This document shows, piece after piece, positions 5,340 through 21,803 of a stretch of DNA of 64,000 bases (positions are counted from its first letter, which is position 1; the number at the start of each line of letters is the position of its first letter). Below the pieces are notes generated by a model. It had not been told where the DNA came from. It saw only the letters and a list, made by a program, of their open reading frames with translations, and made no database searches. This stretch comes from Oceanobacillus iheyensis HTE831 (GTDB lineage Bacteria; Bacillota; Bacilli; Bacillales; Amphibacillaceae): assembly GCF_000011245.1 (NCBI RefSeq), contig NC_004193.1, positions 3,326,501 through 3,390,500 on the forward strand. The letters run 5' to 3'. Position numbers and translations under genes: made by a program.

Positions 5340-6047
5340 TCACATATTAAAATTAACAATATATTTATGAAGCTCGGTATTATAATAGGCAAATGAATAC
5401 TCCACAAGCCGGTCTCTACTATCATAGGAATACCGTTCACGTTGTAATAACGGTTGTTTCTCTACTTCCAACAGTTCGGCAACTTCTTGTTCAGGAACAG
5501 ATACACCAAATTCATCTTTAAATCGATAAAAGCGAATTCCTTGCTGATACAACATATCATAGAGGGAATTAACAAATACTTCCGGATCTTTTGGAAGTGT
5601 AATATGCCCAGCTATATAATGTCTGAAGTGTATATACGGTCTCCCATTTAGGATATACAGGCGTTCAATACAATAGACTTCATTACTGTCCAACTGATGT
5701 AGCGGCGGTGAGAGTTCTTCCACAACTGTTAAATCAATAAATTTCTTACGCAATTGATAACCTTCTCCGATTAAATATTCGGAGAACCGCTGACCTTTCG
5801 ATAATTTGGAAACCACTTGATTCGCCAAAACCGTTGTCCCGATACCACTTCTTTTTTCTACGTAGCCTTCTTGAGCAAGTTGTTCTACCGCTTTGCGTAT
5901 AGTTATCTTACTCACTTCAAACTCTCTCTCTAATTCTGGTTCAGAGGGAATTAGATCATTGACCTTATATCGCCCATTAATAATTCTTTCTTTCAAGATA
6001 TCTTTCACTTGAATATATAAAGAACCTTCCCTTAAATTCAGTTTCAT
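5340..6047 (-). CDS. GntR-family (HutC/UTRA) transcriptional regulator
   Basis: The 235-aa protein has an N-terminal winged helix-turn-helix (about residues 8-75, including LIPSEPELEREFEVSKITIRKA split over two helices) and a C-terminal UTRA ligand-binding domain with an EVYCIERLYILNGRPY strand. UTRA regulators bind phosphorylated or acidic sugars, as NagR/YvoA does with glucosamine-6-phosphate. It is the last gene of the minus-strand aldonate operon, 8 bp after the kinase gene, and is therefore the obvious local regulator. Its effector may be an intermediate such as KDG, KDPG or glucosaminate; this is inference. Confidence 0.85.
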   Translation of the reverse strand: MKLNLREGSLYIQVKDILKERIINGRYKVNDLIPSEPELEREFEVSKITIRKAVEQLAQEGYVEKRSGIGTTVLANQVVSKLSKGQRFSEYLIGEGYQLRKKFIDLTVVEELSPPLHQLDSNEVYCIERLYILNGRPYIHFRHYIAGHITLPKDPEVFVNSLYDMLYQQGIRFYRFKDEFGVSVPEQEVAELLEVEKQPLLQRERYSYDSRDRLVEYSFAYYNTELHKYIVNFNM

Positions 6048-6054
6048 GGTTGAT

Positions 6055-7068
6055 CTACCTTTCTATATCGGGATCATGATTATTTACTAATGCCCATACT
6101 TCTTTATCTGAGGAAATCGGCGAATCACCATAAGTCGTATGTGCTAATATTCCTGCTGCCATCGCAAATTGAATAGTATCTTTTTTCGAATACTGTTGTC
6201 GTAATCCATGCATTATACCACTAGCAAATCCATCTCCTCCACCGATACGATCGAAAATTCGAAATTCATAACGTTTGGAGAAATAAAATTTAGCATTTGT
6301 ATATAAAAACCCTTCGATTTCATGCTTATTATCTTGTAATCTCTGCCTTATTGTACCAGCAATTGATTGAATTCCATATTCCTTTGCTACTTTTGGTATA
6401 AGGTGTTTGATTTGTGATTTTCGTTCTATCTCATTCGTAGCGTAGCCTAATATATGCATAGCGTCTTTTTCTGTCATAAAACATACATCACTTAGCTGCA
6501 GCATTTGCTGATAATCATTTTTCGCACGGTGAATATTACTTTTCCAAAGTTTCTGCCGATAATTACAATCAAATACTACTAAAACTCCACGTTCCTTTGC
6601 TTTTTTAGCAAGTGAAAGAATGGTATCCCTCGAATTCTCAGAGACTGCTAACCCAATGCCACAAAAGTGAATCATATCTGTATCTAGTAAAATGCGATCC
6701 ATTTCATAGTCTGAAGTTACTGATTGATGAAAGGCACTGATTTTCCTATTGGTGTATGTGACTACGGATGGGCGCAAATCAAAACCATCTTCTAAAAAGA
6801 ACATGCCTATATGGTCCCCATCTCGACGAATGTCTTGCGTTCCAATACCTAATGATTGCAAATACGATAGCGATGCTTCTCCGATATTATTATCTGGTAA
6901 AGTGGTGATGAGACTAGTCTGGTTGCCATATCTCCCTAGAGCCGTCAGCACATTCACTCCTGTACCCGAAAAAGACATATCTAACGCACGCGTTTGCACT
7001 AACTTCTTATTACCTGGTACATGGAGTCGCATCATTACTTCTCCAAATGCCTTCACTTTATTCGTCAT
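6055..7068 (-). CDS. PfkB-family sugar kinase, probable 2-keto-3-deoxygluconate kinase
   Basis: The 337-aa ribokinase-fold protein has the PfkB C-terminal signature DRIGGGDGFASG, with the catalytic base at Asp279, and an N-terminal GEVMMRL strand followed by the substrate-binding SGTGVNV segment. KDG kinases of this fold phosphorylate 2-keto-3-deoxygluconate at O6. The gene overlaps the end of the aldolase gene by 11 bp and has its own AGGAGATC site, so the two are translationally coupled. With the lyase upstream and the aldolase beside it, the order of reactions would be deamination, phosphorylation, aldol cleavage. Other 2-keto sugar acids cannot be excluded. Confidence 0.82.
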   Translation of the reverse strand: MTNKVKAFGEVMMRLHVPGNKKLVQTRALDMSFSGTGVNVLTALGRYGNQTSLITTLPDNNIGEASLSYLQSLGIGTQDIRRDGDHIGMFFLEDGFDLRPSVVTYTNRKISAFHQSVTSDYEMDRILLDTDMIHFCGIGLAVSENSRDTILSLAKKAKERGVLVVFDCNYRQKLWKSNIHRAKNDYQQMLQLSDVCFMTEKDAMHILGYATNEIERKSQIKHLIPKVAKEYGIQSIAGTIRQRLQDNKHEIEGFLYTNAKFYFSKRYEFRIFDRIGGGDGFASGIMHGLRQQYSKKDTIQFAMAAGILAHTTYGDSPISSDKEVWALVNNHDPDIER

Positions 7069-7798
7069 ACTGATCTCCTAATTTTTTCACAAAATGATAG
7101 ATAGACTGTACATCCTCTAGTCTCGTACGACCGGTAGATCCATCGATAATAGATGAATAGACATGTGGAATAACTTTCTTCACACCTGCTTGAAGGGCAA
7201 TTTCAATAATTTGTGGACTATTTTGAACATCTATTCCCCCTGTTGGCTCTAAATAAAAGTCTTCTTTTGCACAAGCCTTAGCTACTGCTTCATACTCTTC
7301 TAAACGACTCGTTCCACCCATTGGAAAGAACTTCAATGAATTCCCTCCCATTTCTTTTGTTAGCTGAATCGCTGCTTCTACTTCTACGATAATAAGAGAT
7401 TTATTCGTTGGACCAGTAGCAATGTCGACAAGACCTGGTTGGCCAGTTGGCTTTACGAGGCTATTAATCATCGTTTGAGCATGATTTACAGCCGCTCTTG
7501 TATATCCTACTTTTGGGAAAACTTGATTAATATGTCTTGGTTTATACTCACGACTAATATCTGCAACCATCTTCCATTGTTCCGGGTTCCCACCACCTAA
7601 ACCAAGAGAAATGGATCCATCTAGTACTTTATCATACACCCTTATATCTTCTAACGCTTCTTGTACGCTTGTATAATTGCTTGATAATAACCCGATAAGT
7701 ACATGACCATCGGTTGCTTCATAGATTTCTTTTGCATTTGTTATATCGGAAGCTAATACATTTAAACAAATTCGATCGTTATAAAAGTTTTGAGCCAT
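7058..7798 (-). CDS. KDGP aldolase family protein (DgaF/EF_0839-like)
   Basis: The 246-aa TIM-barrel protein belongs to the family typified by Salmonella DgaF, which splits 2-keto-3-deoxy-6-phosphogluconate into pyruvate and glyceraldehyde-3-phosphate. Visible features are the glycine-rich SLGLGGGNPEQW loop, the Lys-bearing NSLKFFPMGG segment near the expected Schiff-base position, and the YLEPTGGIDVQN phosphate-binding turn. It lies between the PLP lyase and the kinase with 4-bp spacing and an 11-bp overlap respectively. The same three-gene neighbourhood of amidohydrolase, SelA-like enzyme and this aldolase recurs in other Firmicutes such as Enterococcus. No classical Eda aldolase is nearby. 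Confidence 0.85.
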   Translation of the reverse strand: MAQNFYNDRICLNVLASDITNAKEIYEATDGHVLIGLLSSNYTSVQEALEDIRVYDKVLDGSISLGLGGGNPEQWKMVADISREYKPRHINQVFPKVGYTRAAVNHAQTMINSLVKPTGQPGLVDIATGPTNKSLIIVEVEAAIQLTKEMGGNSLKFFPMGGTSRLEEYEAVAKACAKEDFYLEPTGGIDVQNSPQIIEIALQAGVKKVIPHVYSSIIDGSTGRTRLEDVQSIYHFVKKLGDQYDE

Positions 7799-7802
7799 AT
7801 AA

Positions 7803-8876
7803 TTAACCTCCTATTAGGCTAGAAATTTCTTGTACAATGATATCCATATCTCCTGGTAATAATGGGCGAGGATCAATATCGAAATGCCCCTCATTTGCAT
7901 GGTAATCCCTTGTATAAATAGCAGGATTTCCGTCTTTTAATTGATTCACTAATGTCGACGCATCCATAGGTGCTTCTGCTTCAATATGTACTCTTCCACG
8001 GTAAATTTCTCTCCCTGCTTCATCAGCCTGAATAGTTATCTTAACACCGTTCACTTCTTCTAGTTTCTTTAATTTATCTAATTCTGCTAATTGAAGTGAT
8101 ATATCGGTTTCTTCGTTAACAAATTGTTCTAATGCATGCAATAATCCGAAGATAGCTTCTTTCCCTACTTTCATCGCTCTCCCGATTCCCTTCATATGAT
8201 AGGTTGCATACGTTATAAGCTCCGTTTTCCCAGCTAAAATGCCAGATGTAGGACCTTTTATTGCTTTGGAACCACTAAAGATTATCATGTCTGCAAGCTC
8301 TCCATATCCAGCAATATCTTCTTCTGCAGCTGCATCAACAATAAGTGGAATTTTTTTCTGACGTGCCCATTCACTTACCTCTTGTAAAGATGGCATATTC
8401 TTTTGCACACAATGATGCGATTGTACAAAAAGAATTGCCGCCGTATTCTCCGATACCGCTTGATTTATTTGGTCAATGCTGCAGCCATTTGCAAATCCTA
8501 CACCTTTAGGTCTCCCACCACCTAAATGTATCATCACATCTACCGGAGCTCCATAATCTACTTGATGGCCTTTCATTATTAGTATTTCTCGTTGAGGCAT
8601 AGATTCTTCATATAAATGCTCCACAAGGTAGCGATTATCCTTTGATATAACCCCCGCTACAGCAAGTGATATTGCAGCGGATGCAGAGTTTGTGATTAGC
8701 GCATGTTCTGTATGTACATACTTCGCTACTTGCTTTCCGGATTCCTGCACTAGTGCTTCCATTTCAAAGTAGTGTTTACCTCCATTAGCCATGCCATCGA
8801 GCACATAATCGGAAATTGTAGATACACCCAATATACTCATTCTTCCACTCGCATTAATCACTTTTCTCAAGTTCAA
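7803..8876 (-). CDS. SelA-like PLP enzyme, probable D-glucosaminate (6-phosphate) ammonia-lyase
   Basis: The 357-aa fold-type I PLP enzyme has Asp181 in PLIVDAAAEED, to pair with the pyridine nitrogen, and Lys204 in FSGSKAIKGP as the Schiff-base lysine. Its closest described relatives are the SelA-related enzymes, including DgaE, which removes ammonia from D-glucosaminate-6-phosphate to give a 2-keto-3-deoxy sugar acid. The start lies inside the end of the amidohydrolase gene (about 23 bp overlap). A separate KDG-type kinase follows, so the enzyme here may act on the unphosphorylated glucosaminate. That distinction from DgaE is inferred from the operon content. Confidence 0.8.
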   Translation of the reverse strand: MNLRKVINASGRMSILGVSTISDYVLDGMANGGKHYFEMEALVQESGKQVAKYVHTEHALITNSASAAISLAVAGVISKDNRYLVEHLYEESMPQREILIMKGHQVDYGAPVDVMIHLGGGRPKGVGFANGCSIDQINQAVSENTAAILFVQSHHCVQKNMPSLQEVSEWARQKKIPLIVDAAAEEDIAGYGELADMIIFSGSKAIKGPTSGILAGKTELITYATYHMKGIGRAMKVGKEAIFGLLHALEQFVNEETDISLQLAELDKLKKLEEVNGVKITIQADEAGREIYRGRVHIEAEAPMDASTLVNQLKDGNPAIYTRDYHANEGHFDIDPRPLLPGDMDIIVQEISSLIGG

Positions 8877-9963
8877 AGTACTTCCCTCCTATGATGACTG
8901 CCTCTGCCTTAATGAGCAATTCCCCATCAATACTCGTACCAAAGGAATCTGTTAATTTTTTGGATGATTCTTTTACTGTAAAAAATGTTAAGTCCGCTAT
9001 CGAACCCGGTTGTAAGCTGCCTAAATCCGGTTTCCTTAGAATTTCTGCCGGTTTGATCGTAACTGCTTCAATAACTTCTTCTAAGCTATATCCTAATGCT
9101 AAGAATTTACTTAACATCGTCTCCATATTATAGACAGGCCCATTCTTTTGATTGTTTTGGTAAATATCTGTTCCTAAACTATCAAAATAAACTCCTTGTT
9201 GCTTCGCTTTTTGGGCAATTCCAAATGAAAAGCTAGAGCTTCCATGACCAACATCTAAATACACCCCTCTATCAATCGCAGCTAATAATGAGGGTTCAAC
9301 AGAGCCATCTTCTCTAAAAATATGATTATTTTCTTTCTCATGGTAACAGTGCGTTAGAATATCTCCTTTTTTCATATAACTTAATACTTCATTAAGTTCA
9401 GGAGGAGCTGTTCCGACATGTACCATTAATGGGAGTTCTAATTTATGACGAAATGTTTCAGCTATACTTAGCGGTTGTATGCCATTTCCACAAACAACGC
9501 TTGCACTCATTCGTGCTTTTAATCCTACAATAAATTGCGGATATTCCTCTACTGCTTGCTGAATCGCAGCAAATGATAGATTATCCAGATCAGAAAGTTC
9601 ATCCTGACGCATCAGTCCGATTCGAGATATATTTAAAAAAGCAAATACTCTCGTCGTTGCTTCTTGTGCAATGCGATAGAATTCATCAACATCATCCGCA
9701 CCGCTGCTACCTGCATCTACAACCGTTGTTACCCCAGTCTTATAGCCAATTTGATCTGGCATCGCACAATATGGCTTATATTTAGGAAACGCATGTGTAT
9801 GAAGGTCTATCCAACCCGGGGAAACATACATACCAGCTGCATCAACAATTACATCACCTTGAATTGTAGTCGTTTCTGAGGCTTCTACAATTCGCTGATT
9901 TTCAATTACAATATCTACGGTTGTTCCATTGACTAACGTTGCATTCTTTACAATTTGTACCAT
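8854..9963 (-). CDS. Amidohydrolase/deacetylase family metalloenzyme (EF_0837-like)
   Basis: The 369-aa dinuclear-metal amidohydrolase has His55 and His57 in DLHTHAF, a probable carboxylated Lys149 in VGLKAR, His182 in MVHVGT, His205 in LTHCYH and Asp266 in SLGTDIY, so all ligands expected for a class I site are present. The family clusters with the SelA-like PLP enzyme and the DgaF-type aldolase. In this operon the best fit is hydrolysis of the N-acetyl group of N-acetylglucosaminate, producing the substrate of the ammonia-lyase. It is the first gene of the five-gene aldonate module, 161 bp after the GH3 gene. A lactam or hydantoin substrate is the main alternative. Confidence 0.8.
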   Translation of the reverse strand: MVQIVKNATLVNGTTVDIVIENQRIVEASETTTIQGDVIVDAAGMYVSPGWIDLHTHAFPKYKPYCAMPDQIGYKTGVTTVVDAGSSGADDVDEFYRIAQEATTRVFAFLNISRIGLMRQDELSDLDNLSFAAIQQAVEEYPQFIVGLKARMSASVVCGNGIQPLSIAETFRHKLELPLMVHVGTAPPELNEVLSYMKKGDILTHCYHEKENNHIFREDGSVEPSLLAAIDRGVYLDVGHGSSSFSFGIAQKAKQQGVYFDSLGTDIYQNNQKNGPVYNMETMLSKFLALGYSLEEVIEAVTIKPAEILRKPDLGSLQPGSIADLTFFTVKESSKKLTDSFGTSIDGELLIKAEAVIIGGKYFELEKSD

Positions 9964-10045
9964 GGTATTTTCTCCTTCTCGAATAGTCCTACAGCTAATT
10001 GATACTTTCCCCTAAAAAAATATCTATCTCTTTTGGAACGAGCAG

Positions 10046-10120
10046 CAATTCATCCATTCTATGAATTGTTACTTTATCCTTCTACACTACCTGCGTTATA
10101 CAAATATAGACATCAGGTCT
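10046..10120. promoter_or_regulatory. Inverted repeats upstream of the amidohydrolase operon
   Basis: In the gap between the GH3 stop and the amidohydrolase start there is a perfect 8-bp inverted repeat CAATTCAT/ATGAATTG (10046-10053 and 10061-10068). There is also a short AGAC-N5-GTCT element (10108-10120), a spacing seen in HutC-type GntR operators. They may be operators of the GntR protein at the end of the operon. No clear -35/-10 pair was found. Confidence 0.3.
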
Positions 10121-10124
10121 TACT

Positions 10125-11714
10125 CTATATTCTTTTTATCTGGTTTGATTTTATTGTTACTGGCAACATACCTAAGATTTCTTCTTCCCCGAACACAGCA
10201 CTCACAGCTACTTCTAGAGCTGGAGAGGAGACTTCATACGTACATATACAAGTATGAAGTTCTGGTAATAATGCTACATCATAAGGGCTTCTCATAACGA
10301 TTGCGATTACTGGTATGTCACTTGCGGCAAGTGTTTCTAATAATAACTGTTGCATCGGTTGCTGCGCTAAATACTGCACCCCGAAAATCACCGCATCGTA
10401 CTGCTTCCACTGTTCTACTTGCTCATGTATATCTTCTTCTGTCCAATCCGATGTTAATGCTATGTTTTTGGCATTCGGCTGATATGAACGCACTGCATCA
10501 TAAAGACGAACAGTTGCATGAGATGGATCCTCTGCTGCCGACTGCGCACTAGCTTCTGGTGTGACAACAACTATATTGCTACTACTATCTATTGGTATGA
10601 GCCCATGATTATAAACCATTGTCACACCTCGTCGGTAGGCTTCCTTCGCCAATTTACGATGATCATTGCCACCGACAAAAGAAGGTACCTTTGCACCGGA
10701 ATCTATACTCGTATTATTCCAATTGATATATGTATCTTTAACGCGCCTGATTCGTTCTGCCGAGGTTAATATAGATTCTCTACTCAGTTCGCCTGACTCT
10801 ACCGCTGCCTTCACTTCTTGAAGCGCACCAACTTGCCGTTGTAACGTATGTGATACCATAGCTAGATCCACGCCTGCTTGCAACGCAGCTACGACCCCTT
10901 TCTCTGTACCAATTGTTTCTGATATTGCATTCATTTCCATACAATCCGTCGTAATTAAACCGGTATATCCTAATTTCTCTCGAAGCAATCCTGTTAATAC
11001 TGCTTTGGATAATGTAGCTGGTTTATCTGCTTCCGGTTCCAATGCTGGAAAGTAGATATGAGCAGACATAATCACATCAGATTCCAAAGACGCTTGAAAA
11101 GGTCGTAACTCGATTTCTTCCAATCGCTCTATGCTATGAGGGATAACCGGCAAAGCTAAATGTGAATCCACTTTTGTATCACCATGACCAGGAAAATGTT
11201 TGAGCGTCGTCACAACACCTGCATCTTGCATACCTTTTACCGCTGCTTTTGCTAAACGAGCGACACGTTCTGGTGACTCTCCGTAAGAACGAACACCTAT
11301 AACTGGATTATCCGGATTTACATTCACATCTACTACAGGAGCTAAGTTCCAATTAATCCCCAATGCTCTTAACTCTGTTCCACTCGCATAACCTACCTGA
11401 TATGCGTTCTCTTCACTGTCACTTGCACCAATCGTCATCCCGCCAGGAAATATTGTCGTTCCTTCTCCAAGACGTCGTACTGTACCATTTTCTTGATCGA
11501 CACAAATCAGCAGTGGACGTTCATATCCCGCATCACGTGCTTCTTTCTGCAAAGAAGCAGTTAATCGAAGTACTTCATCAGGGCTCCCAATATTACGTGT
11601 AAAAAGAATTATTCCACCGATATGATAGTCGTGGATAAGCTTTTTGATCGATTTTGGGACAACTTTGCCATCAAAACCGATTACAAACAGTTCTCCTATT
11701 ATTTTCTCAATCAT
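10125..11714 (-). CDS. nagZ: GH3 beta-N-acetylhexosaminidase (NagZ-like), cytoplasmic
   Basis: The 529-aa glycoside hydrolase family 3 protein has the NagZ signature KHFPGHGDTKVDSH with the Asp183/His185 acid-base dyad, and the nucleophile Asp257 in ITTDCMEMNAI. A C-terminal alpha/beta sandwich domain (from about residue 360) follows, as in Gram-positive NagZ. There is no signal peptide, unlike exported YbbD-type NagZ, so it should act in the cytoplasm on imported oligosaccharides, removing non-reducing GlcNAc. It sits between the DUF624 gene and the aldonate module. Wall recycling is the usual role of NagZ, but the transporter and GH20 context points to amino-sugar oligosaccharide catabolism. 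Confidence 0.88.
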   Translation of the reverse strand: MIEKIIGELFVIGFDGKVVPKSIKKLIHDYHIGGIILFTRNIGSPDEVLRLTASLQKEARDAGYERPLLICVDQENGTVRRLGEGTTIFPGGMTIGASDSEENAYQVGYASGTELRALGINWNLAPVVDVNVNPDNPVIGVRSYGESPERVARLAKAAVKGMQDAGVVTTLKHFPGHGDTKVDSHLALPVIPHSIERLEEIELRPFQASLESDVIMSAHIYFPALEPEADKPATLSKAVLTGLLREKLGYTGLITTDCMEMNAISETIGTEKGVVAALQAGVDLAMVSHTLQRQVGALQEVKAAVESGELSRESILTSAERIRRVKDTYINWNNTSIDSGAKVPSFVGGNDHRKLAKEAYRRGVTMVYNHGLIPIDSSSNIVVVTPEASAQSAAEDPSHATVRLYDAVRSYQPNAKNIALTSDWTEEDIHEQVEQWKQYDAVIFGVQYLAQQPMQQLLLETLAASDIPVIAIVMRSPYDVALLPELHTCICTYEVSSPALEVAVSAVFGEEEILGMLPVTIKSNQIKRI

Positions 11715-11736
11715 GAACTACCACCTCTTTCTGCAT

Positions 11737-12354
11737 TCATTTATTATTTACTTCATATTTTCCGAATGTTTTCGAAACTCCCCACATTAATATATAAGCC
11801 GTTACACTTCCGCCAAAGAAAAATAACAACGCTGGTAAAGAATAGAAAGTAATAGATAAAAGCAGTCCAACTCCTACTAATAAAACAACTGTAAGAATAG
11901 GATGGATGACTCCGATAATAAAAGGCCATTTGATATAATCCATGAATTTCAAGTTGAAGTGTACATAGATTGGGAAGAAATAGGCAACTACCATGGCAAA
12001 TAAAATTAAAATAACTACTACACTAAACTGAACCATCTGATAAATAAGACTTGTTTGTGTGCCTAGTATTTGAAATTCTATTGTTAGTAGGTAGCCTACT
12101 GCAGCTAGCAAGAGTCCTAGCCCATTTGCTTTTACAAACTCTTGGCGATATGTCTTCCAAAACAATGGAAAAATAGCAATATCCTGCTCACCCATATTCC
12201 ATTTCCGAACCACTGCAAACATTGCTACGGTTGCGGGGATAAGCCCAAATATTCCCAACCCTAATATCGTAAAAGCAATCCAGAGAATATTTACATATGC
12301 AAATCGCGTTATCCAAACGGCTATTGAATAGTATCCTTGTGCGATACTCGTCAT
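11737..12354 (-). CDS. DUF624 (YesL-like) membrane protein
   Basis: The 205-aa protein has five or six predicted membrane helices and the N-terminal ITRFAYVNILWIAFTILGLG segment typical of DUF624. Such proteins are regularly encoded beside LplABC/YtcP-type sugar ABC transporters in Bacillaceae, as yesL is in the rhamnogalacturonan locus, but their molecular role is unknown. It follows the second permease gene by 88 bp and precedes the GH3 gene by 22 bp, so it belongs to the same transcription unit. The start at 12354 has AGGTGATTTAG upstream. Confidence 0.82.
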   Translation of the reverse strand: MTSIAQGYYSIAVWITRFAYVNILWIAFTILGLGIFGLIPATVAMFAVVRKWNMGEQDIAIFPLFWKTYRQEFVKANGLGLLLAAVGYLLTIEFQILGTQTSLIYQMVQFSVVVILILFAMVVAYFFPIYVHFNLKFMDYIKWPFIIGVIHPILTVVLLVGVGLLLSITFYSLPALLFFFGGSVTAYILMWGVSKTFGKYEVNNK

Positions 12355-12442
12355 CTAAATCACCTCACTATGTGAATTCAATAATTGAAATGTAGACAAA
12401 AGCAGGTGTTCACTTCTTACACCGTGTTTTGCCTCATTTCAG

Positions 12443-13339
12443 TTATTCCTTTACAGAACCTATCAGAACTCCTTTTACAAAGAAACGTTGTAAAAATGGA
12501 TATACAATTAATAGTGGTAGTGCAGAAACGATGATCACTGCATATTTTACTAATGAAGCTGTTTTTACTTGCTCTGCAAACGATTGAGCAGAACCAGCAG
12601 CATTGGAAATACTACTTGCATTCACTTCATTCAAGATCAAAATTTGCCGAAGTATTAGCTGTAATGGGAATTTATCTTCTGTACGTAAATAAATCAACGC
12701 ATTAAAGTACTGATTCCATAAGGCAACTCCATGAAAAAGTGCCATTACAGCAATAATTGGTAATGATAACGGTAAAACTACCTTAATAAATAAGTAAAAG
12801 TCACTTGCTCCATCAATTTTGGACGCTTCGACAAGTTGATCTGGAATAGTTTGTTGGAAGAAGGTTCGCGCAACAAGAATCGACCAAGCTCCCACAACCC
12901 CTGGAATAACAATCGCCCACATTGTATCGAGCATTTGCAAATTACGAACAACTAAGTACGTTGGAATAAGTCCTCCATTAAATAGCATCGTGAATAAAAT
13001 AAACCATAACCAAAATTTCTTCCCCATTAATTCTTTGCGGGATAAGGCATATGCTGCCGGCAATAAAACAAACAAATGGATGAGCACACCAACAATTGTG
13101 TATAAGATCGTATTTTTATATCCCGTCCAAATCGCATCATTTTGGAATACTCGTTGGAACCCATCAAAGGTAATATCCACTGGCCAAAGCCACATCTTCC
13201 CAGTGTTCACAGCTTGAGGATCACTAATGGATGCGCTCAGCACAAAAATAAGCGGATAAATGACGATTATTGTAATAATCGATACAAAAAGTATATTTAA
13301 CCGGTCAAAGGCCTTATCCGATAAACTAAATCTAGACAT
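12443..13339 (-). CDS. Carbohydrate ABC transporter permease, LplC/YtcP type
   Basis: The 298-aa inner-membrane permease has six helices and the conserved EAA-type cytoplasmic loop (LVEASKIDGASDFYLFIKVVLP, residues about 181-202), which docks to the ATPase. It pairs with the LplB-type permease 15 bp upstream to form the channel of an importer. No ATPase gene is present in the cluster. This is normal for the family, which uses a shared MsmX-type ATPase encoded elsewhere. The context of two N-acetylhexosaminidases suggests amino-sugar oligosaccharides as cargo. RBS GAAGGAGG precedes the ATG. Confidence 0.88.
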   Translation of the reverse strand: MSRFSLSDKAFDRLNILFVSIITIIVIYPLIFVLSASISDPQAVNTGKMWLWPVDITFDGFQRVFQNDAIWTGYKNTILYTIVGVLIHLFVLLPAAYALSRKELMGKKFWLWFILFTMLFNGGLIPTYLVVRNLQMLDTMWAIVIPGVVGAWSILVARTFFQQTIPDQLVEASKIDGASDFYLFIKVVLPLSLPIIAVMALFHGVALWNQYFNALIYLRTEDKFPLQLILRQILILNEVNASSISNAAGSAQSFAEQVKTASLVKYAVIIVSALPLLIVYPFLQRFFVKGVLIGSVKE

Positions 13340-13354
13340 ATTGCATCCTCCTTC

Positions 13355-14290
13355 CTACCATAAGCTGTTCTCACTAACTTTTCGTGCGATTTGGTTAACG
13401 GTAATTAGTAGAACAATATTAATCGCTGATTCAAACAACCCAACAGCTGCTGCAAAACTATATTGTCCTTGCAGGATACCTGTTTCATATACAAACGTTT
13501 GGATAATATCCGATGTTTCGGAGTTTAATGTATTTTGCATAAGTAACACTTTCTCAAAGCCAATCTGCATAAAGTTTCCGATATTTAAAATAAATAATAC
13601 AACGATGGTTGGCATGATACTTGGAATATTTATCCGGAAAATACGCTGTAATCTCGTGGCACCATCCACTTTTGCAGCTTCATGAAGCTCTGGGTTTACC
13701 CCCGCTAATGCTGCTAAATAAATAATGGTACTCCACCCTAGTGTCTGCCATTGACCGGACCAGACAAAAATATGGCGGAACCAATCTGGGCTTGTTAGAA
13801 ATGGAATTGGTTCCATCCCTAAAGCACGGATAAGGTGATTGATTAATCCAGTGTTTGGATCTAGGAACGCAACAAGCATCCCAACAACAACAACGACAGA
13901 AATAAAATGCGGTGCATATGTCAAAGTCTGTGTCCACTTCTTATATGCCCCATTACGTAATTCATTAAATGCAAGTGCTAAAATAATCGGTAATGGGAAA
14001 AGTACGAGCATGTATAGATTCAAGACAAGTGTATTCTTTAATAATCTCCAGAAGTAATAGGAACTAAAAAAACGTTCAAAATGTTCAAAACCAACCCACG
14101 GACTTCCCCATATTCCTAGGTTCGCAAAGTAGTCTTTAAAAGCAATTTGAACGCCATACATTGGTATATAATGAAAAATAAAAAAGTACGAAACTACAGG
14201 TAAAAGAAATATATATAATTGCCAATTCGAAAACAAGTTCTTTTTTATTTTGTAGCTTCTACCCCTATGAGCGGGCAATTGTTTTGCCAT
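13355..14290 (-). CDS. Carbohydrate ABC transporter permease, LplB type
   Basis: The 311-aa permease has an N-terminal basic tail, six helices and the EAA loop LHEAAKVDGATRLQRIFRIN around residues 210-229. The short FHYIPMYGVQIAFKDY stretch after the first helix is typical of the LplB branch of the oligosaccharide importer family. Together with the LplC-type protein and the solute-binding lipoprotein upstream it forms a complete importer apart from the ATPase. A 266-bp gap containing strong hairpins separates it from the binding-protein gene, as expected where the binding protein is made in excess. Confidence 0.88.
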   Translation of the reverse strand: MAKQLPAHRGRSYKIKKNLFSNWQLYIFLLPVVSYFFIFHYIPMYGVQIAFKDYFANLGIWGSPWVGFEHFERFFSSYYFWRLLKNTLVLNLYMLVLFPLPIILALAFNELRNGAYKKWTQTLTYAPHFISVVVVVGMLVAFLDPNTGLINHLIRALGMEPIPFLTSPDWFRHIFVWSGQWQTLGWSTIIYLAALAGVNPELHEAAKVDGATRLQRIFRINIPSIMPTIVVLFILNIGNFMQIGFEKVLLMQNTLNSETSDIIQTFVYETGILQGQYSFAAAVGLFESAINIVLLITVNQIARKVSENSLW

Positions 14291-14472
14291 ATCATTGTCT
14301 ACCTCCTTAAGCAGCTAACTAATGTACAACCTTGATACGTTCGTCGACCATGTATTCCTAATGAAACAACCTTAATTGGCAATTATGTATACTTTTGAAC
14401 ATTGCTTCGCTTACACGTCTGAAGTTGTATTGTCATGCTGGATAAATAGGAAGTAATGCTGTTCAATAGAAT

Positions 14473-14531
14473 CTACTCTCTTTTTCTTTTATCAAAGGGA
14501 GTAGAGAGAGGAAAAGGGGGGAGCCTCTCTC
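14473..14531 (-). terminator. Attenuating hairpins between binding protein and permease genes
   Basis: Two adjacent stems are visible: CTACTCTCTTT with AAAGGGAGTAG (14473-14504, one G-U pair) and GAGAGAGG with CCTCTCTC (14504-14531). The minus-strand transcript leaves the binding-protein gene through them before reaching the permeases. Neither is followed by a long T-run, so partial termination or protection against RNA decay is more likely than a full stop. Confidence 0.5.
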
Positions 14532-14556
14532 TTCAAAATCCATCTGTAATCAAAAA

Positions 14557-16191
14557 TTAATTCTCTGTATAACGGTTGTAAGCATTTTGATGTACTTCTA
14601 CAACCTCTTCTAATCCCATTTGGTTTAGTGTGTCTACATAATTATCCCAGTTAGCTAAATCTTCATCACCAGTAATAAATTTGTCCCGCATTTCTTCGAT
14701 ATAGTTGTTGATATCTTGACCAGTAGATTGTAAGACAATATTCTCCTCGTCAGTAAATGTGAAACGCGGCCAAATTTCTTCTGGAACAAAAGGTTCAATC
14801 TTCTCAGCAGCTTCCATGGACTGAGGAGCAGTTTCTCCACCTTGGAAATAATCTGCTTTAATAATTCCGTTAATCGAACCTAACCATGTTAACTGCTTGG
14901 CTAGCGCTTGTTCAAAAGTTATATCTCCTTCAGGATTTAAGATGTGATCTTTATAAACCGCTTCACCGTCTTCTATTTCAAATGTTTCGCCTTCTACACC
15001 CATGTAGTAAAGTTCCGCACCTTCATCACTGTAGAAATGATCCATCCAACGTACCGTAGCAGCTGGATTTGAATTCTCACTAGTAATTACTAAGTTTGCT
15101 GGATCCCACACAGAAGAAGAAAGTTTATTATATGTTTGATGTCCTTCTGGTCCCTCTAAAGCTGCAACACTGCTATATTGAGAACCAATATCTTCACCAA
15201 ATAATTCAATTGGATCATAGAAAATCATACTTCCATATAAATTATCAGAGGCATTTGCTAAGAATTGTCCCCACTCAATCGTAAAGATACTTTGATCAAT
15301 TAATCCTTCTTCGTACAGTTTGTTAATATACTCAAGCATTTGCTTATACTCATCGGTTATAGCAAAGTTACGAACTTCACCAGAAGCATCCAAATCATAG
15401 TTCATATTTGACGGACCTTGATTCATGACTCCAAAAGAGCCAGCTAACCATTGCACTAATTCTTGGATCTGCGTGCCACCATAAGGTATTGTTTTACCGC
15501 CACCTACTGGATCAAGCTCTTTTACAGCCTTCAAATATTCATAGAATTCACCAGTTGTTTCTGGAATTTCCATTCCCAATTCATCCAACCAATCTTCATT
15601 CACCCATGGGCGAGCACTCAGACGTAAGGATAGGAAGTCTTCCTCAATAAGCGCTGGCATGGAGTAAATGTTTCCATCTGGGAACGTAAGTGCTTTTCGA
15701 ATACTTGGGTCTTCTTCCATTAACGCTGTAAGGTTTGGAGCGTATTGTTCAATTAAATCATTTAACGGTAGGAATACATCTTGCCCACCATACCTTAATA
15801 AATCGCTACTCGTAAGCTGCGATAAGAAGAACGCGTCAGGTAAATCGCCACTACCTAAAGCCAGGTTACGATTTTCTTCTAAAGCATCTGGACTTACAAG
15901 ATCCCAATTTACATTGATGTTTGTTTGATCTCTATATTCATTCCAAATTAGGATATCATTCCAATCATTGTCTTCATTTTGAGCAGGCTTGTTTGCAAAA
16001 AAAGTTAGTTCTTGCTCTTCATCAACAATAGGCATTCCTGATTCATTTACATCTTCGCTTGCAGCAGTCGCATCGTCGCCACCACCACTATCTCCGCCAT
16101 CTCCTCCACCCTCATCATCGTTATTACAAGCAGATAAAGCGGTTACAAATCCTATTAGTAAAAGAATTAACAATAATCTTTTAACCTTCAC
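14557..16191 (-). CDS. Extracellular solute-binding lipoprotein of the LplA type
   Basis: A GTG start at 16191 is preferred over the upstream ATG at 16218 because GGGAGGG lies 9 bases before it; this gives 544 aa. The N-terminus is a lipoprotein signal (VKVKRLLLILLL...) ending in a LSAC lipobox, followed by an acidic Gly/Asp-rich linker. The mature protein is a large type I binding protein of the LplA/YtcQ family. It should be anchored to the outer face of the membrane and deliver oligosaccharides to the LplB/LplC permeases. It is the first gene after a strong promoter and long leader. Confidence 0.87.
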   Translation of the reverse strand: MKVKRLLLILLLIGFVTALSACNNDDEGGGDGGDSGGGDDATAASEDVNESGMPIVDEEQELTFFANKPAQNEDNDWNDILIWNEYRDQTNINVNWDLVSPDALEENRNLALGSGDLPDAFFLSQLTSSDLLRYGGQDVFLPLNDLIEQYAPNLTALMEEDPSIRKALTFPDGNIYSMPALIEEDFLSLRLSARPWVNEDWLDELGMEIPETTGEFYEYLKAVKELDPVGGGKTIPYGGTQIQELVQWLAGSFGVMNQGPSNMNYDLDASGEVRNFAITDEYKQMLEYINKLYEEGLIDQSIFTIEWGQFLANASDNLYGSMIFYDPIELFGEDIGSQYSSVAALEGPEGHQTYNKLSSSVWDPANLVITSENSNPAATVRWMDHFYSDEGAELYYMGVEGETFEIEDGEAVYKDHILNPEGDITFEQALAKQLTWLGSINGIIKADYFQGGETAPQSMEAAEKIEPFVPEEIWPRFTFTDEENIVLQSTGQDINNYIEEMRDKFITGDEDLANWDNYVDTLNQMGLEEVVEVHQNAYNRYTEN

Positions 16192-16308
16192 TTTGCTTTC
16201 CCTCCCTAGAAAATACATTTCTACAACACGATTGATCCCCCTAAAACGTCAAACCAAACTATACCTATCTTTTATGTATCACCCCTCTATTAAAATAAAA
16301 TGAAACTT

Positions 16309-16349
16309 CATTCAGTGGGAGAGTTTTCATTTTCCTAGCCCACTGAATG
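16309..16349 (-). terminator. Leader hairpin before the solute-binding protein gene
   Basis: CATTCAGTGGG and CCCACTGAATG form a perfect 11-bp stem with a 19-base loop. On the minus strand the stem is followed by AAGTTTCATTTTATTTTAAT, a T-rich stretch without a pure T-run. It lies in the roughly 300-nt leader and could be a conditional terminator. Confidence 0.45.
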
Positions 16350-16369
16350 GTAGTACCACAGGGCATGAC

Positions 16370-16402
16370 CTAAAGGTCGTTAAACAGCATCCTACATTCC
16401 AA
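16370..16402 (-). CDS. Possible 10-codon leader peptide
   Basis: In the leader RNA a canonical AAGGAGG (16410-16416) is followed, after 7 bases, by TTG and ten codons reading MECRMLFNDL, then TAG. The Shine-Dalgarno lies in the loop closed by GCAGTT/AACTGC (16403-16408 and 16431-16436). A real leader peptide would offer translational coupling to the hairpin downstream at 16309-16349. No homologue is known, and the call rests only on the quality of the ribosome binding site. Confidence 0.25.
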   Translation of the reverse strand: MECRMLFNDL

Positions 16403-16506
16403 GCAGTTTCCTCCTTTTGCGTGCGGATATAACTGCTCGATTTATGCAGGATGTAATGCAGCTAATTCAATTTATAAAATTTTTGTAAAATTTCTTCTTA
16501 TTCGAA

Positions 16507-16560
16507 ATAGTATCACTATTATATTGTAATGTCAATATAACATTATAATGTTTGTAATGT
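16507..16560 (-). promoter_or_regulatory. Promoter and operator region of the binding-protein/importer operon
   Basis: On the minus strand TTGACA (16535 to 16530) and TACTAT (16512 to 16507) are 17 bp apart, a near-consensus sigma-A promoter. Directly upstream lies the 12-bp perfect palindrome ACATTATAATGT (16540-16551). The motif ACATTACAA occurs twice on the minus strand, ending 28 bp apart (16552-16560 and 16524-16532), the second copy overlapping the -35. This arrangement suggests an operator at the promoter. The regulator, perhaps the GntR protein of the locus, is not proven. Confidence 0.6.
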
Positions 16561-16607
16561 TTTTTTAGGAAGCTAATACTTCCTTTTGTTGAAATCCATA
16601 TTTCTTT

Positions 16608-17612
16608 CTACATTAATTTTACACAAACTGGCCTTGGGACTGCATATCTCTGATTGGAATTTACCCATCCATCCTGTATTGTTTTTTCCATAACTATTAA
16701 CTCATTGCTATGTTCATTGGCGACAATCACGTATTTATCTCCTGGAATTTTTGATTGGAAATGTCTTGGCCATTTGCTACCTAATCTCGAAACTGATAGT
16801 TTGTTTAACAATCCGTTGTTGATTATCTCGTAAGTTGTAATCGAATCATGTCCGCGGTTTGACACATATAGAAATTCTCCGTTGCATTGAACTTCTGCTC
16901 CATAATTTTCTTGTTTAGCATCGCTCGATAACGTGGATACTCTTTGTTGTAACTGTACGAGCTCTTTTTCTAAATCATATGCATATGCGAGTATTGTTGA
17001 ATCGAATTCATTCACTACGTAAAATAATTCTATTTCCGGATGAAAATCAATATGCCTAGGTCCTGAAGGATACGGTGTTTCCACTTCAAATCGCCGCTGA
17101 AGTTTTCCTGTCTCTTGATTAAAATGTAAGAAATATAACTTATGCTGTCCAAGGTCTGTTGCAACATAATAATTGCTTTTGGGCAGGCGCCGTATTGTAT
17201 GCAATCTTGATTCAGTTGAAAAATGAATACAATCGGTTTCTTCTTCTATTTTTCCATTCTCATTTGTTCGATAGACGACTAGATTTCCACCGGTATAATT
17301 ACTGACAAACACATGGTCACCATTCACTTCAATATAACAAGGTCCGCCATGAGTAGGATGACGATTCCATTCAGTTAATTGGTTGTTTAATGGATCAATA
17401 CCATAACAAACAACTTCTCCTTGTTTGACCTCACTAATAGCATATAAACAGGATTTATCCGTATTAATTTCTACAAATGAAGGATTATCTATGCCTTCAA
17501 AAGCTGCCACCTTTGCAAGCTTGCCAATCAGTGGATCAAAAGAAAGCCAGTGAATAGTTTCTTCATTCTTTTCTCCATAACTGCCAACAAACACATCTAA
17601 CAATGGGTTCAT
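16608..17612 (-). CDS. Seven-bladed beta-propeller lactonase (6-phosphogluconolactonase-like)
   Basis: Translation should begin at the ATG at 17612 (MNPLLDVFVGSYGEK), which has GGAGGGGAG 5 bases upstream, giving 334 aa. The longer frame running back into the GH20 gene is an overlap artefact. The protein shows the lactonase-family propeller repeats, such as GGPCYIEVNGDHVFVSNYTG and PSGPRHIDFHPE. Family members hydrolyse sugar lactones, either 6-phosphogluconolactone or other aldonolactones. It lies 19 bp after the GH20 gene and before the importer promoter. A role in opening N-acetylglucosaminic acid lactone would fit the aldonate module downstream; this is inference. Confidence 0.78.
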   Translation of the reverse strand: MNPLLDVFVGSYGEKNEETIHWLSFDPLIGKLAKVAAFEGIDNPSFVEINTDKSCLYAISEVKQGEVVCYGIDPLNNQLTEWNRHPTHGGPCYIEVNGDHVFVSNYTGGNLVVYRTNENGKIEEETDCIHFSTESRLHTIRRLPKSNYYVATDLGQHKLYFLHFNQETGKLQRRFEVETPYPSGPRHIDFHPEIELFYVVNEFDSTILAYAYDLEKELVQLQQRVSTLSSDAKQENYGAEVQCNGEFLYVSNRGHDSITTYEIINNGLLNKLSVSRLGSKWPRHFQSKIPGDKYVIVANEHSNELIVMEKTIQDGWVNSNQRYAVPRPVCVKLM

Positions 17613-17631
17613 TCGCTCCTCCCCTCCATTT

Positions 17632-19548
17632 CTAGTAAATTGGTAAGACATGAAAAAATACATTAGGAGATGCCATACGGTAATAGTAACTACCCCACCC
17701 AAGGCCTGTGGATTGTTCAAATCTTTTAGAATAAGAAAGTCTCTCTTGTTCTAGCTCCTCAATTTCTTCCAGTTCCCCCTCTACAAAACGTTCAATACGA
17801 TCTTTTGCAGTTTCTAGACGGTTAAATAAACCTCCATAACGTATATCAATTACTTCCCAACCAAATGGTTTATTCATCGTTAGCCATTGCTTCCGATGGG
17901 CAGCTCGAAGTTCACGAACATCATCCAATAAAGGCACGATCTTTGTATCTACTAAATACGTTAATTCGGACAACTGCTTCTTATCATAGGCTCGTTTTAA
18001 TTTCACTCCGAGAGATGCTTTATTTGCTAATACATTGCATAACTTTTTAGGCACATCATAATGAATCCTAGCATTTTCGTACGCTTCCTTCTGTTTCAAT
18101 TCAATCTTCGTAGAAAGGTCTTCATAGTATTCATCTAAATCCAGCCCTTCTATATGTTTATCAAAAACACCTAATAATGGATCTTGCCATAAAAGGAACT
18201 TAGAAGGATTCGTCTGTTGAAGATTTCCTTCCGCTACACCAGGTGGTTGATCCAACTGATTCAATAATAATAAGGCATCTACATCTATACCGGTGATAAA
18301 TGTCGCCCTCTGTTTGACTTCTACTTCATCTACTTGCTCGTTATATGCATGGTCTGCGTAATACTGTATTCCATAAAGAGAGGTGTACACATTGTTTTCA
18401 TATCCATCATCCCCCCACAGTGTCACAAACACATCACGAATTCCGTTATTCTTACAGGCTTGAAGTGCTTGTTCACTCGCGCTTAAAGAAAGATGATAGT
18501 TTGGTGCAAATGTATTCCACACCCACATGCCTCCTGCAAATGCTGGCGTCCTGCCAAATCGCTTTAATTGCCCTATCATATTGTCATAGTGATCATAATC
18601 CGTCTGATTATACTGCCAATACATAAATTGAACATTTTCTGGTAATTGTTGAATAATATATTCTGGAAGATTCGTAGATTTATCGTACTGATCTCCGGTT
18701 TCTGATGCTAACTTTAAAAACATATCACTCCACATCATCGCTTCTAAATCATATTTATCAGTGATTTCTAATACGTTTGTTAAATGCTTCGACATCATTT
18801 CGAATCGGGATTGATAACCATGAATATTTAAGTATCTTCCCCTACCTACTTCTTCTGCTTCATCCATACCTATGTGGATACGTTTACTGCGGAATGGTTT
18901 TGTAACCGAATGGATCATTCTATCTAGTAAATCGTACGTATCCTCGCTATCTAGTAATAATGCCCCTCTCGTATCCTTGTACTTATAAGCTGCATCCCAT
19001 TTTAAGAATTCCTCTAAATGAGCCAGCGTCTGGATACAAGGTATCAGCTCTATCCCAAATAAAGCAGCATATTCATCCAATTCACGTAGTTCAGCTTCTG
19101 AGTAGCGTCCGCGCATGTAGCCAAAATAAGGTTCATCGCTCACTTCATAGGTATCTTCCATATAAAGCATAACGCTATTATGCCCCATCATAGCTAACTT
19201 TCGGATGAAGTCTTTTAGTGTTGTTAATTTCATGGTCATATTCCGTGAAAGGTCGAACATCGGTCCAATAGTAGAAAAATGCATTTTTTCGTTTGTTTCT
19301 AGAGGAGTATCTTCTTGTTGTAGGTGTTGAAGTAGCATACTAAAAGCGCGAAAGAAATGATTAGGTTGGGCGTAAGTAATCGTCCCTTTACCTTGTTTAT
19401 AAGAAATTGCTAAGCCATTGACTGCTTCTTCCTGCACACATGTAATGGTAATCTCTGCCCGCTCATCTAACGAAAAAGCATAACTTGCTTGTAACTCGCT
19501 TAACCCTTTCATGATTGCAGCACTGTCACCTGTTATAGTTAGATTCAT
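17632..19548 (-). CDS. GH20 beta-N-acetylhexosaminidase, cytoplasmic
   Basis: The 638-aa glycoside hydrolase family 20 protein has an N-terminal GH20b-like domain (about 1-90), a TIM barrel beginning near residue 92, and the catalytic pair Asp229-Glu230 in RIHIGMDEAEEVG. The acetamido of the substrate acts as nucleophile in this family, so the substrate must carry an N-acetyl group. There is no signal peptide, which places the enzyme in the cytoplasm after the importer. A helical C-terminal part (about 470-620) is rich in charged residues. The ATG at 19548 follows GGGAGG. It is the first gene of the minus-strand sugar locus. Confidence 0.88.
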   Translation of the reverse strand: MNLTITGDSAAIMKGLSELQASYAFSLDERAEITITCVQEEAVNGLAISYKQGKGTITYAQPNHFFRAFSMLLQHLQQEDTPLETNEKMHFSTIGPMFDLSRNMTMKLTTLKDFIRKLAMMGHNSVMLYMEDTYEVSDEPYFGYMRGRYSEAELRELDEYAALFGIELIPCIQTLAHLEEFLKWDAAYKYKDTRGALLLDSEDTYDLLDRMIHSVTKPFRSKRIHIGMDEAEEVGRGRYLNIHGYQSRFEMMSKHLTNVLEITDKYDLEAMMWSDMFLKLASETGDQYDKSTNLPEYIIQQLPENVQFMYWQYNQTDYDHYDNMIGQLKRFGRTPAFAGGMWVWNTFAPNYHLSLSASEQALQACKNNGIRDVFVTLWGDDGYENNVYTSLYGIQYYADHAYNEQVDEVEVKQRATFITGIDVDALLLLNQLDQPPGVAEGNLQQTNPSKFLLWQDPLLGVFDKHIEGLDLDEYYEDLSTKIELKQKEAYENARIHYDVPKKLCNVLANKASLGVKLKRAYDKKQLSELTYLVDTKIVPLLDDVRELRAAHRKQWLTMNKPFGWEVIDIRYGGLFNRLETAKDRIERFVEGELEEIEELEQERLSYSKRFEQSTGLGWGSYYYRMASPNVFFHVLPIY

Positions 19549-19754: not shown

Positions 19755-20240
19755 TTAGTTCATTCCAACACTCTCTACATGAAATTGTTCGTTTAATGAT
19801 ATCATTTCAAGTAATCCGAGTGCTGTTTCCGCACCTTTATTTCCAGCTTTCGTACCGGCTCTTTCTACAGCTTGCTCAATCGATTCCGTTGTTAGCACAC
19901 CAAACAATACAGGTATGTTACTATTCATCCCTACTTGAGCTACTCCCTTAGAGACTTCATTACAAACATAATCATAATGTGTCGTTGCTCCGCGAATCAC
20001 TGTTCCTAACGTTATTACTCCGTCGTATTTTTGAGAATGGACTGCGCGCTTGGTGATATAAGGAATCTCAAAAGCACCTGGAACCCAAATCACATCAATA
20101 TTTTCCCTAGCTACGCCGTGACGAATAAGCATATCTTCTGCCCCAGATAATAGTTTCGAAGTAATAAATTCATTAAATCTACTTGTTACAATCGCTATCT
20201 TCTTGCCCTGTCCATTATAGTTGCCTTCATAAATTGTCAT
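19755..20240 (-). CDS. ribH: 6,7-dimethyl-8-ribityllumazine synthase
   Basis: The 161-aa protein has the normal length for lumazine synthase. Family motifs are ATSRF-type SRFNE near the N-terminus, the VPGAFEIP loop (residues about 53-60) and the active-site [18 protein letters not shown] segment with the catalytic His. It condenses 5-amino-6-ribitylaminouracil with 3,4-dihydroxy-2-butanone-4-phosphate; family members form icosahedral or pentameric shells. It is the last gene of the riboswitch-controlled rib operon, followed by a strong terminator. Confidence 0.95.
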
Positions 20241-20260
20241 ATGATCAAACTCCTTTAAGA

Positions 20261-20884: not shown

Positions 20885-20895
20885 ATTTACCCTCC

Positions 20896-21522: not shown

Positions 21523-21672
21523 ATCATCAGCTCCTTTTATGAAATTTAATATCAGAAATGAATGTGATCTTTTAAAAAGGGGATTATAGTGATCTAGAGA
21601 GTAAGCAACTTCTAAATTCGTATTTGCAGAAGTAAGTGAGGACAAGTGAATAACATTCACTCCATATAAATA

Positions 21673-21698
21673 GCCCCGCAATATATAGATTGCGGGGC
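21673..21698 (-). terminator. Riboswitch expression-platform terminator
   Basis: GCCCCGCAAT and ATTGCGGGGC form a perfect 10-bp GC-rich stem with a 6-base loop, followed on the minus strand by TATTTATATGG. It lies between the FMN aptamer and ribE and is the likely FMN-dependent terminator. The T-tract is weak. Confidence 0.65.
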
Positions 21699-21803
21699 GT
21701 AGCTAACTCTAATAAACGATATGTGTAAAAATACGTAAATGTAAGACAGCTAGAAAAAACATCGTTTTCTCCACATCAAATAGATATACGTATCCATACA
21801 GCT

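Follow-up and report, generated by a model that had tools for sequence, protein, structure and literature searches.

A locus of Oceanobacillus iheyensis with a probable role in the import and catabolism of oxidised chitin fragments

Do Gram-positive bacteria possess their own route for oxidised amino-sugar oligosaccharides? The question is raised by twelve minus-strand genes at positions 5340-19548 of a 64,000-nucleotide stretch of the Oceanobacillus iheyensis HTE831 genome (NC_004193.1, C1:3326501-3390500 of a single contig of 3,630,528 bp), hereafter the window. A sequence-only reading of this DNA had proposed such a route, and its central idea was strongly supported here by clustering of the genes with those of copper-dependent lytic polysaccharide monooxygenases (LPMOs) in relatives, by co-occurrence across genomes and by a shared operator. 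Together with the gene families, these results make it very probable that the locus provides the uptake and breakdown steps of an oxidative pathway for chitin, with oxidised chitin fragments as the substrate class; the individual substrates, the order of the steps, and the ligand and sign of the regulator are what we infer from the same data.

Gene content of the locus and the proposed route

Every gene named by the sequence-only reading was found as an open reading frame (ORF), and its families agreed with the NCBIfam and Pfam matches. A DUF624 gene missing from that reading was added. The features are as follows, in window coordinates.

5340..6047, minus strand: GntR/UTRA regulator (PF00392 and PF07702)
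6055..7068, minus strand: PfkB sugar(-acid) kinase (PF00294; no NCBIfam equivalog above cut-off)
7058..7798, minus strand: DgaF-type KDPG (KDGP) aldolase (NF047796, TIGR03581, PF07071)
7803..8876, minus strand: DgaE-family ammonia-lyase dependent on pyridoxal phosphate (PLP), TTG start (TIGR01437; alignment to 7lc0; conservation)
8854..9963, minus strand: EF_0837-family amidohydrolase (AMH), proposed N-acetylglucosaminate deacetylase (TIGR03583)
10125..11714, minus strand: predicted GH3 beta-N-acetylhexosaminidase (NF003740; 6k5j as the nearest solved structure)
11737..12354, minus strand: DUF624 membrane protein beside the importer (PF04854; an importer neighbour in related loci too)
12443..13339, minus strand: LplC-type ATP-binding cassette (ABC) permease (homologues in the same position in 12 related loci)
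13355..14290, minus strand: LplB-type ABC permease (homologues in the same 12 loci)
14557..16218, minus strand: solute-binding lipoprotein (SBP; PF01547 and PDB search)
16507..16535, minus strand: putative promoter TTGACA-17-TACTAT of the importer operon (by eye)
16537..16554, no strand assigned: putative operator palindrome with 2 mismatches to ATAACATTATAATGTTAT (motif scan)
16608..17612, minus strand: seven-bladed beta-propeller lactonase, start revised by eye (PF10282)
17632..19548, minus strand: predicted GH20C beta-N-acetylhexosaminidase (PF18088)

The GH20C protein matched PF18088 with 220 bits and was closest to the solved structures 2epk and 5a69, the latter a GH20C enzyme; its D229-E230 pair, which we take to be the catalytic pair, formed invariant columns in 4 rows. 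The GH3 protein exceeded the cut-off of NF003740 (212.7 against 207 bits), and 6k5j is a GH3 beta-N-acetylglucosaminidase. The lactonase was matched by PF10282 alone (245 bits) and lay below the NCBIfam cut-offs for 6-phosphogluconolactonase (134/500 and 117/370 bits). Its start is very likely at 17612, where the listed ORF has Met 37, because the longer ORF runs into the GH20 gene. Inspection by eye found no N-terminal signal sequence on the GH20, GH3 and lactonase proteins, in agreement with what had been stated for the two hexosaminidases, and a lipobox (LSAC) on the SBP. The best PDB matches of the SBP were 5g62/5g5y, an SBP with no named ligand, followed by AlgQ1/AlgQ2. The latter bind acidic (alginate) oligosaccharides, and the likeness would fit an acidic oligosaccharide as the ligand. 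The names LplB and LplC are labels of the sequence-only reading, kept here unchecked by Pfam, and an NCBIfam search of both permeases gave no match. Among 80 GH20 loci, the 12 related ones encoded LplC homologues of 83-92% identity, those of the nearest loci, in Oceanobacillus, being 91-92% identical, and LplB homologues of 83-90%; LplB identity was 42-46% in the LPMO-linked loci L140, L145, L149 and L157 (L numbers denote the stretches examined).

A search of the genome for LPMO genes, which the sequence-only reading had pointed to as a check, detected one LPMO_10 match at C1:863127, a chitin-type AA10 protein with CBM5/12, along with two GH18 matches. This LPMO gene adjoins a GH4 gene (Pfam) and an apparent RpiR-type regulator gene (by eye; L240:1029-4093). 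The reported lack of NagA and NagB in the locus was also correct, both being encoded elsewhere (C1:2995720 and C1:639084), by which the idea that the locus replaces hydrolytic catabolism of N-acetylglucosamine (GlcNAc) was rejected. The locus held no additional minus-strand ORF of at least 100 amino acids, hence no RidA-sized gene.

In the proposed route, the secreted AA10 LPMO, encoded elsewhere and apparently under the same operator, would generate C1-oxidised chito-oligosaccharides. Short oligosaccharides would be imported by the lipoprotein and the LplBC permeases, GH20C and GH3 would cut GlcNAc off the non-reducing end, and the lactonase would open any 1,5-lactone that is left. AMH would deacetylate the released N-acetyl-D-glucosaminate (GlcNAc1A). 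The PfkB kinase would phosphorylate position 6, with D-glucosaminate as the most likely substrate and GlcNAc1A as the other candidate, DgaE would eliminate ammonia to form 2-keto-3-deoxy-6-phosphogluconate (KDPG), and DgaF would split KDPG into pyruvate and glyceraldehyde-3-phosphate. GlcNAc would be handled by the separate NagA and NagB of the genome, and GntR would keep the operons repressed in the absence of an oxidised amino-sugar acid. Judged from the sequences, our confidence is high for the substrate class and moderate for the order of the steps.

Association with LPMO genes and a common operator

In relatives, a GH20C-lactonase-importer set of the same kind surrounds an AA10 LPMO gene. 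The cluster of Gracilibacillus orientalis (L050/L145) harbors an AA10 LPMO with CBM5/12 between LplB (43% identity to that of the window) and the lactonase (33%) with GH20C (56%), together with an intervening GNAT ORF, a nearby GH18 gene and a broken AMH fragment. The fragment lies at L050:7600-7800 beside the chitinase, importer and LPMO genes, and an intact AMH set is found in the same species at L046. The LPMO gene was also inside the cluster in G. halotolerans (L054/L157), Lederbergia (L140), Virgibacillus (L149) and 'Roseburia sp. 1XD42-34' (L150). Genes for LPMO, importer, GH20C, lactonase, AMH, DgaE and kinase were all on one contig in five cases, in which two stretches were assigned to the same contig by its length; these were G. 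lacisalsi (L147 and L223), G. suaedae (L148 and L224), G. timonensis (L155 and L225), Virgibacillus sp. AGTR 2 (L149 and L235) and 1XD42-34 (L150 and L233), the last with no DgaF ORF seen. The contig of L150 (NZ_QWLJ01000034.1) is recorded as Roseburia sp.; its locus is most like Bacillaceae loci, and the assignment may be wrong.

The gene set of the window itself recurred in Ornithinibacillus gellani (L141/L231, with GH3), Ornithinibacillus bavariensis (L137; no DgaF ORF), Pseudogracilibacillus auburnensis and Lentibacillus saliphilus. A chance gene neighbourhood was rejected in view of similar arrangements in L137, L138, L141, L142 and L150; these span three named genera and one doubtful assembly, and the GH20-lactonase pair is at the opposite end in L142 and L150. 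Fifteen rows of the AMH tree bore the label 'importer plus GH20/LPMO', whose distribution required four gains or losses, at least three of which were forced by the starred branches. Several independent gains are likely, a single gain followed by losses being the alternative. In Oceanobacillus loci L134, L136, L139, L146 and L156, AMH is kept in the GH20-importer locus without DgaE, DgaF and kinase, and a second AMH with these three is present elsewhere in those of the species that were examined (L226, L227, L228, L238).

The lactonase gene was used to divide the GH20C loci, of which 80 were taken and 78 remained after L173 and L199, having no GH20 ORF, were dropped. Gene labels came from BLAST against the window proteins and five others, by which distant relatives are missed. 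A lactonase relative was present in 21 of the 78 loci. AMH, DgaE or DgaF plus the kinase accompanied 12 of these 21 as compared with 5 of the 57 loci without a lactonase (P = 2e-5), and an LPMO gene was in the stretch in 5/21 and 1/57, respectively (P = 0.005). At the level of whole genomes, counted for the first 50 of the 78 loci in list order minus L143 and L170 (48 genomes), DgaE was found in all 20 lactonase-linked genomes and in 11 of the 28 others (P = 6e-6). In the set of 398 Bacilli genomes described below, 25 of 43 GH20C matches were inspected in context, and only L116 had a lactonase relative, several genes away.

The co-occurrence of AMH and LPMO was examined in two sets. The order set of 199 genomes included 15 with AMH above the cut-off and 15 with LPMO, and 6 genomes held both (1.1 expected, P = 2e-4). 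The class set of 398 Bacilli genomes contained AMH in 58 (E up to 1e-80), LPMO in 48 and both in 32 (7.0 expected, P = 9e-20); when AMH was restricted to matches above the cut-off, 16 of 33 genomes had LPMO (4.0 expected, P = 5e-8). Counting genera (142 in total) gave 19 with AMH, 24 with LPMO and 15 with both (3.2 expected, P = 6e-11), and according to our own reading of the lists, 13 of these 15 hold the two within one genome. The control pair of GH20C and LPMO shared 6 genomes in the class set (4.7 expected, P = 0.45).

Gene context was viewed for 14 other genomes above the AMH cut-off and two below it in the order set, and in the class set for a further 20 of the 58 with AMH. L075:6869-9591 consists of the operator described below followed by genes for a phosphotransferase system (PTS) EIIC component, a MupG-like 6-phospho-glycosidase and the AMH set; L040 has GH4 instead. 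The L075 layout suggests a PTS-based variant that takes up a disaccharide with an amino-sugar acid as its terminal unit. In L048, L049, L091 and L093, AMH, DgaE and DgaF stand with DUF4310/DUF4311 genes and a PRD regulator, and no kinase is present (by Pfam for L048, by layout for the others). Loci of this type probably represent an unusual PTS route, and their AMH rows form one side of a well-supported tree branch.

A common operator connects these genes further. The palindrome ATAACATTATAATGTTAT came from an alignment of upstream regions and a scan, with ten loci used for its derivation. The 64 kb window gave a single hit with up to three mismatches, at 16537-16554, one base above the TTGACA-17-TACTAT promoter; as the chance expectation is 0.24 hits per window, this lone hit means little alone. 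Outside the ten derivation loci, 63 hits were detected in 3.78 Mb, and 53 of them were upstream of AMH, GH20, SBP or LPMO genes, in windows making up 2.6% of the bases; the counts include duplicates from overlapping loci (e.g. L141/L231), and one species of the derivation set is represented again by the genome of L156, whose locus is a near copy. The remaining hits comprised five before PTS EIIC genes in AMH loci and five elsewhere. The palindrome was found in 36 of 38 AMH loci with this GntR gene, when compared to 9 of 26 without it (P = 3e-7), the latter including some that are truncated where the contig or the locus ends (L041, L047, L138, L141). Ahead of the LPMO gene of O. iheyensis, a copy with 3 mismatches lies at a distance of 242 bases, and a second, degenerate copy stands directly before the putative promoter TTGACG-17-TAAGAT with a spacing nearly as in the window. 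The LPMO gene of Ornithinibacillus gellani has an exact copy 80 bases ahead. The GntR/UTRA regulator is predicted to bind ATAACATTATAATGTTAT and to respond to a GlcNAc1A-like acid.

Clusters of Gracilibacillus, Virgibacillus and Lederbergia carry a different, TGGTATAG-type site ahead of LplB, LPMO or AMH; 13 of the 14 hits of the longer pattern of that site were before these genes, several being doubled by overlapping loci. A TTGGTATAG-type site, the motif proper to these other clusters, was rejected as the window operator, as 17 matches with up to one mismatch occurred in the 64 kb against 7 expected, only one of which was before the SBP gene.

Order of the steps and competing explanations

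AMH exceeded the cut-off of TIGR03583 (580 against 432 bits). Its residues H55, H57, K149, H182, H205 and D266 were invariant in 63 of 63 rows, and by our reading of the amidohydrolase pattern, these six would be the metal ligands. DgaE passed TIGR01437 (450 against 385 bits) and was below the cut-off of the equivalog NF047797 (353/600 bits). Alignment to 7lc0 located H154/H155, K204 as the PLP lysine and the phosphate-site arginines R293, R323 and R337, and the three arginines were invariant in 55 of 55 rows, from kinase loci and PTS loci alike. Arg226, the modelled carboxylate residue of Salmonella DgaE, corresponds to Lys217 here, and all rows but one have Lys or Arg at this position. DgaF passed NF047796 (355 against 300 bits) and also matched TIGR03581 and PF07071. 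The kinase was below the NCBIfam cut-offs for 2-dehydro-3-deoxygluconokinase (NF052444, 72/400; NF041332, 152/440), and its nearest solved chains were 3ktn and 2afb, a kinase of 2-keto-3-deoxygluconate (KDG). GlcNAc1A, glucosaminate (GlcN1A) and KDG are all candidate substrates. AMH, DgaE, DgaF and kinase stay grouped in most of the stretches examined.

As the phosphate-site arginines of DgaE are invariant in all 55 rows, the kinase probably acts before deamination and not on KDG, and phosphorylation before deamination is the order that we favour. DgaF also fits KDPG, in agreement with this order. The DgaE of Salmonella acts on the 6-phosphate, and its Arg301, 332 and 346 lay close to the phosphate in a manually docked model (PMC9529869); a DgaE homologue in haloarchaeal chitinase gene clusters is predicted, and only predicted, to act on glucosaminate-6-phosphate (PMC12343721). 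The sequence-only reading had drawn the other order on the same substrate, in which AMH is followed by DgaE acting on unphosphorylated D-glucosaminate to give KDG, a KDG kinase and the aldolase. This corresponds to the published order of oxidative chitin catabolism, from GlcNAc1A through glucosaminate and KDG to KDG-6-phosphate, and KdgK of Pseudoalteromonas indeed phosphorylates KDG (PMC9537276); the likeness of our kinase to 2afb, though below the NCBIfam cut-offs, points the same way. The KDG-first order is a tentative possibility, but it was not supported by the arginines, which are kept in PTS-type and kinase-type loci, nor by the haloarchaeal prediction. The RidA protein OngD is essential in Pseudoalteromonas (PMC9537276), and His163 of Salmonella DgaE avoids the release of a reactive enamine (PMC9529869). 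Its counterpart is kept as H155, which may be why the locus has no RidA-sized gene.

Several observations weigh against the proposed phosphorylated oxidative chitin route. The DgaE arginines were assigned to the phosphate by manual docking with the Salmonella enzyme (PMC9529869). None of the P values takes phylogeny into account, which the genus count mends only partly, and the control pair of GH20C and LPMO was itself in excess in the order set (4 shared, 0.75 expected, P = 0.003). Gains are indistinguishable from losses on the AMH tree. The palindrome was missing in 2 of the 38 GntR-bearing AMH loci and was absent at the LPMO genes of O. sojae and O. oncorhynchi despite a GntR protein 75-78% identical; of 32 LPMO-only loci, just 2 had it at the LPMO promoter. 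LPMO genes were about as frequent in the lactonase-linked genomes (15/20) as in the other GH20C genomes (23/28, P = 0.72), by which LPMO presence alone was rejected as a marker of lactonase-linked loci. Many AMH loci lack GH20 and appear with GntP or PTS import, and AMH substrates need not be derived from chitin. Since five of the 20 lactonase-linked genomes gave no LPMO match, scavenging of the products of other organisms may also occur.

These five genomes favour a second explanation, in which the substrates are other N-acetylhexosaminide oligosaccharides with an amino-sugar acid end that are not made by LPMO, such as products of oxidases or dehydrogenases, or scavenged acids. It would also account for the many AMH operons that import through GntP or a PTS and have no GH20 gene within the stretch, and for the MupG-like gene of L075 or the GH4 gene of L040 beside AMH. 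We consider it unlikely in view of the repeated linkage to AA10 LPMOs with CBM5/12, once together with GH18, the AMH-LPMO association among genera and the operator at the LPMO promoter. Cog3964 relatives of AMH are active in the hydrolysis of acetyl-(R)-mandelate in vitro, yet an ordinary hydrolytic hexosaminide locus, in which AMH acts on an unrelated acylated acid and is present by coincidence, is highly improbable, as the genes for AMH, DgaE, DgaF and kinase are kept as a group in most of the stretches examined and one operator ties the AMH set to GH20C, importer and LPMO.

Beyond the locus, the window contains an FMN riboswitch (21801-21939, minus strand) ahead of a short rib operon (19755-21681; ribE, stand-alone ribB and ribH). 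Relatives of a citrate:cation symporter and a malic enzyme, both below curated cut-offs, are encoded at 22635-26062 and adjoin an apparent response regulator (by eye).

Relation to known pathways and implications

The closest counterpart is the ong pathway for oxidative chitin utilisation, known from Pseudoalteromonas prydzensis and further Gammaproteobacteria (PMC9537276; PMC12017989). It shares with the locus LPMO products as the source, GH20 hydrolysis, deacetylation of GlcNAc1A, deamination, a PfkB-type kinase (KdgK), KDPG as the end point and a dedicated repressor. The enzymes themselves differ, as the sequence-only reading had expected. OngB is a mononuclear Cys/His/His enzyme of the D-aminoacylase type (PMC12017989), while AMH has an HxH-Lys-His-His-Asp pattern and its match to PpOngB was limited to 71 N-terminal residues (E = 5.5e-4). 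OngC is a PLP enzyme of fold type III, while DgaE is SelA-like, and neither an OngB-type deacetylase nor an OngC-type deaminase was found when looked for at the locus. Uptake by TonB receptors and a sodium symporter in the ong system contrasts with the ABC importer here; the locus also has a lactonase and no counterpart in size of ongD (RidA), hydrolysis is probably cytoplasmic, and deamination probably follows phosphorylation. The aldolase gene is within the locus. Vibrio, Klebsiella and Serratia likewise have one in their ong clusters, and P. prydzensis does not (PMC9537276).

The dgaABCDEF system of Salmonella (PMC9529869) has in common a DgaE-family lyase and a DgaF aldolase working via KDPG. 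There, the free acid is imported and phosphorylated by a PTS, whereas the locus adds the ABC importer, hexosaminidases, AMH, lactonase and kinase. The EF_0837/EF_0838/EF_0839 set comprises the same three kinds of protein (AMH, DgaE-like and DgaF-like), and those of the locus all exceeded the curated cut-offs. The models for the set (TIGR03583, TIGR01437 and TIGR03581) name no pathway, those for AMH and the aldolase being 'hypothetical equivalog', and literature searches on EF0837 and cog3964 found no relevant paper; here, LPMO, GH20C, importer and operator link the set to oxidised chitin.

The survey of ong clusters found those with lpmo in Gammaproteobacteria and one betaproteobacterium and required at least four homologues of ong proteins (PMC9537276), so that a non-orthologous version would be missed. 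Among the matches listed, the titles and abstract beginnings of the open-licence literature contained no description of GlcNAc1A catabolism in Bacillota, and the accessible parts of papers on Aeromonas (PMC11653859) and Lactiplantibacillus (PMC13325158) described no such route in Gram-positives. The locus appears to represent a real Bacillota version of the oxidative chitin pathway, one that has probably gone unreported. In its wider form, towards which we lean with some reserve, Bacillota would hold a widespread non-orthologous, phosphorylated pathway. The EF_0837 family would be deacetylases of GlcNAc1A (or its 6-phosphate), the kinase would yield glucosaminate-6-phosphate, and DgaE and DgaF would finish the route; the import modules (ABC with GH20C, GntP or PTS) would be freely swapped, and one GntR operator would tie them to a secreted LPMO.

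LPMO_10 proteins are encoded in 48 of the 398 Bacilli genomes, and in the searchable papers, the fate of the oxidised products has been described only for Proteobacteria. If the proposal is true, it would assign a function to the genes of the EF_0837 type, for which two of the three models remain 'hypothetical', and would mean at least two origins of the pathway, each from a different stock of enzymes. It would also define a regulon whose substrates and operator are directly testable.

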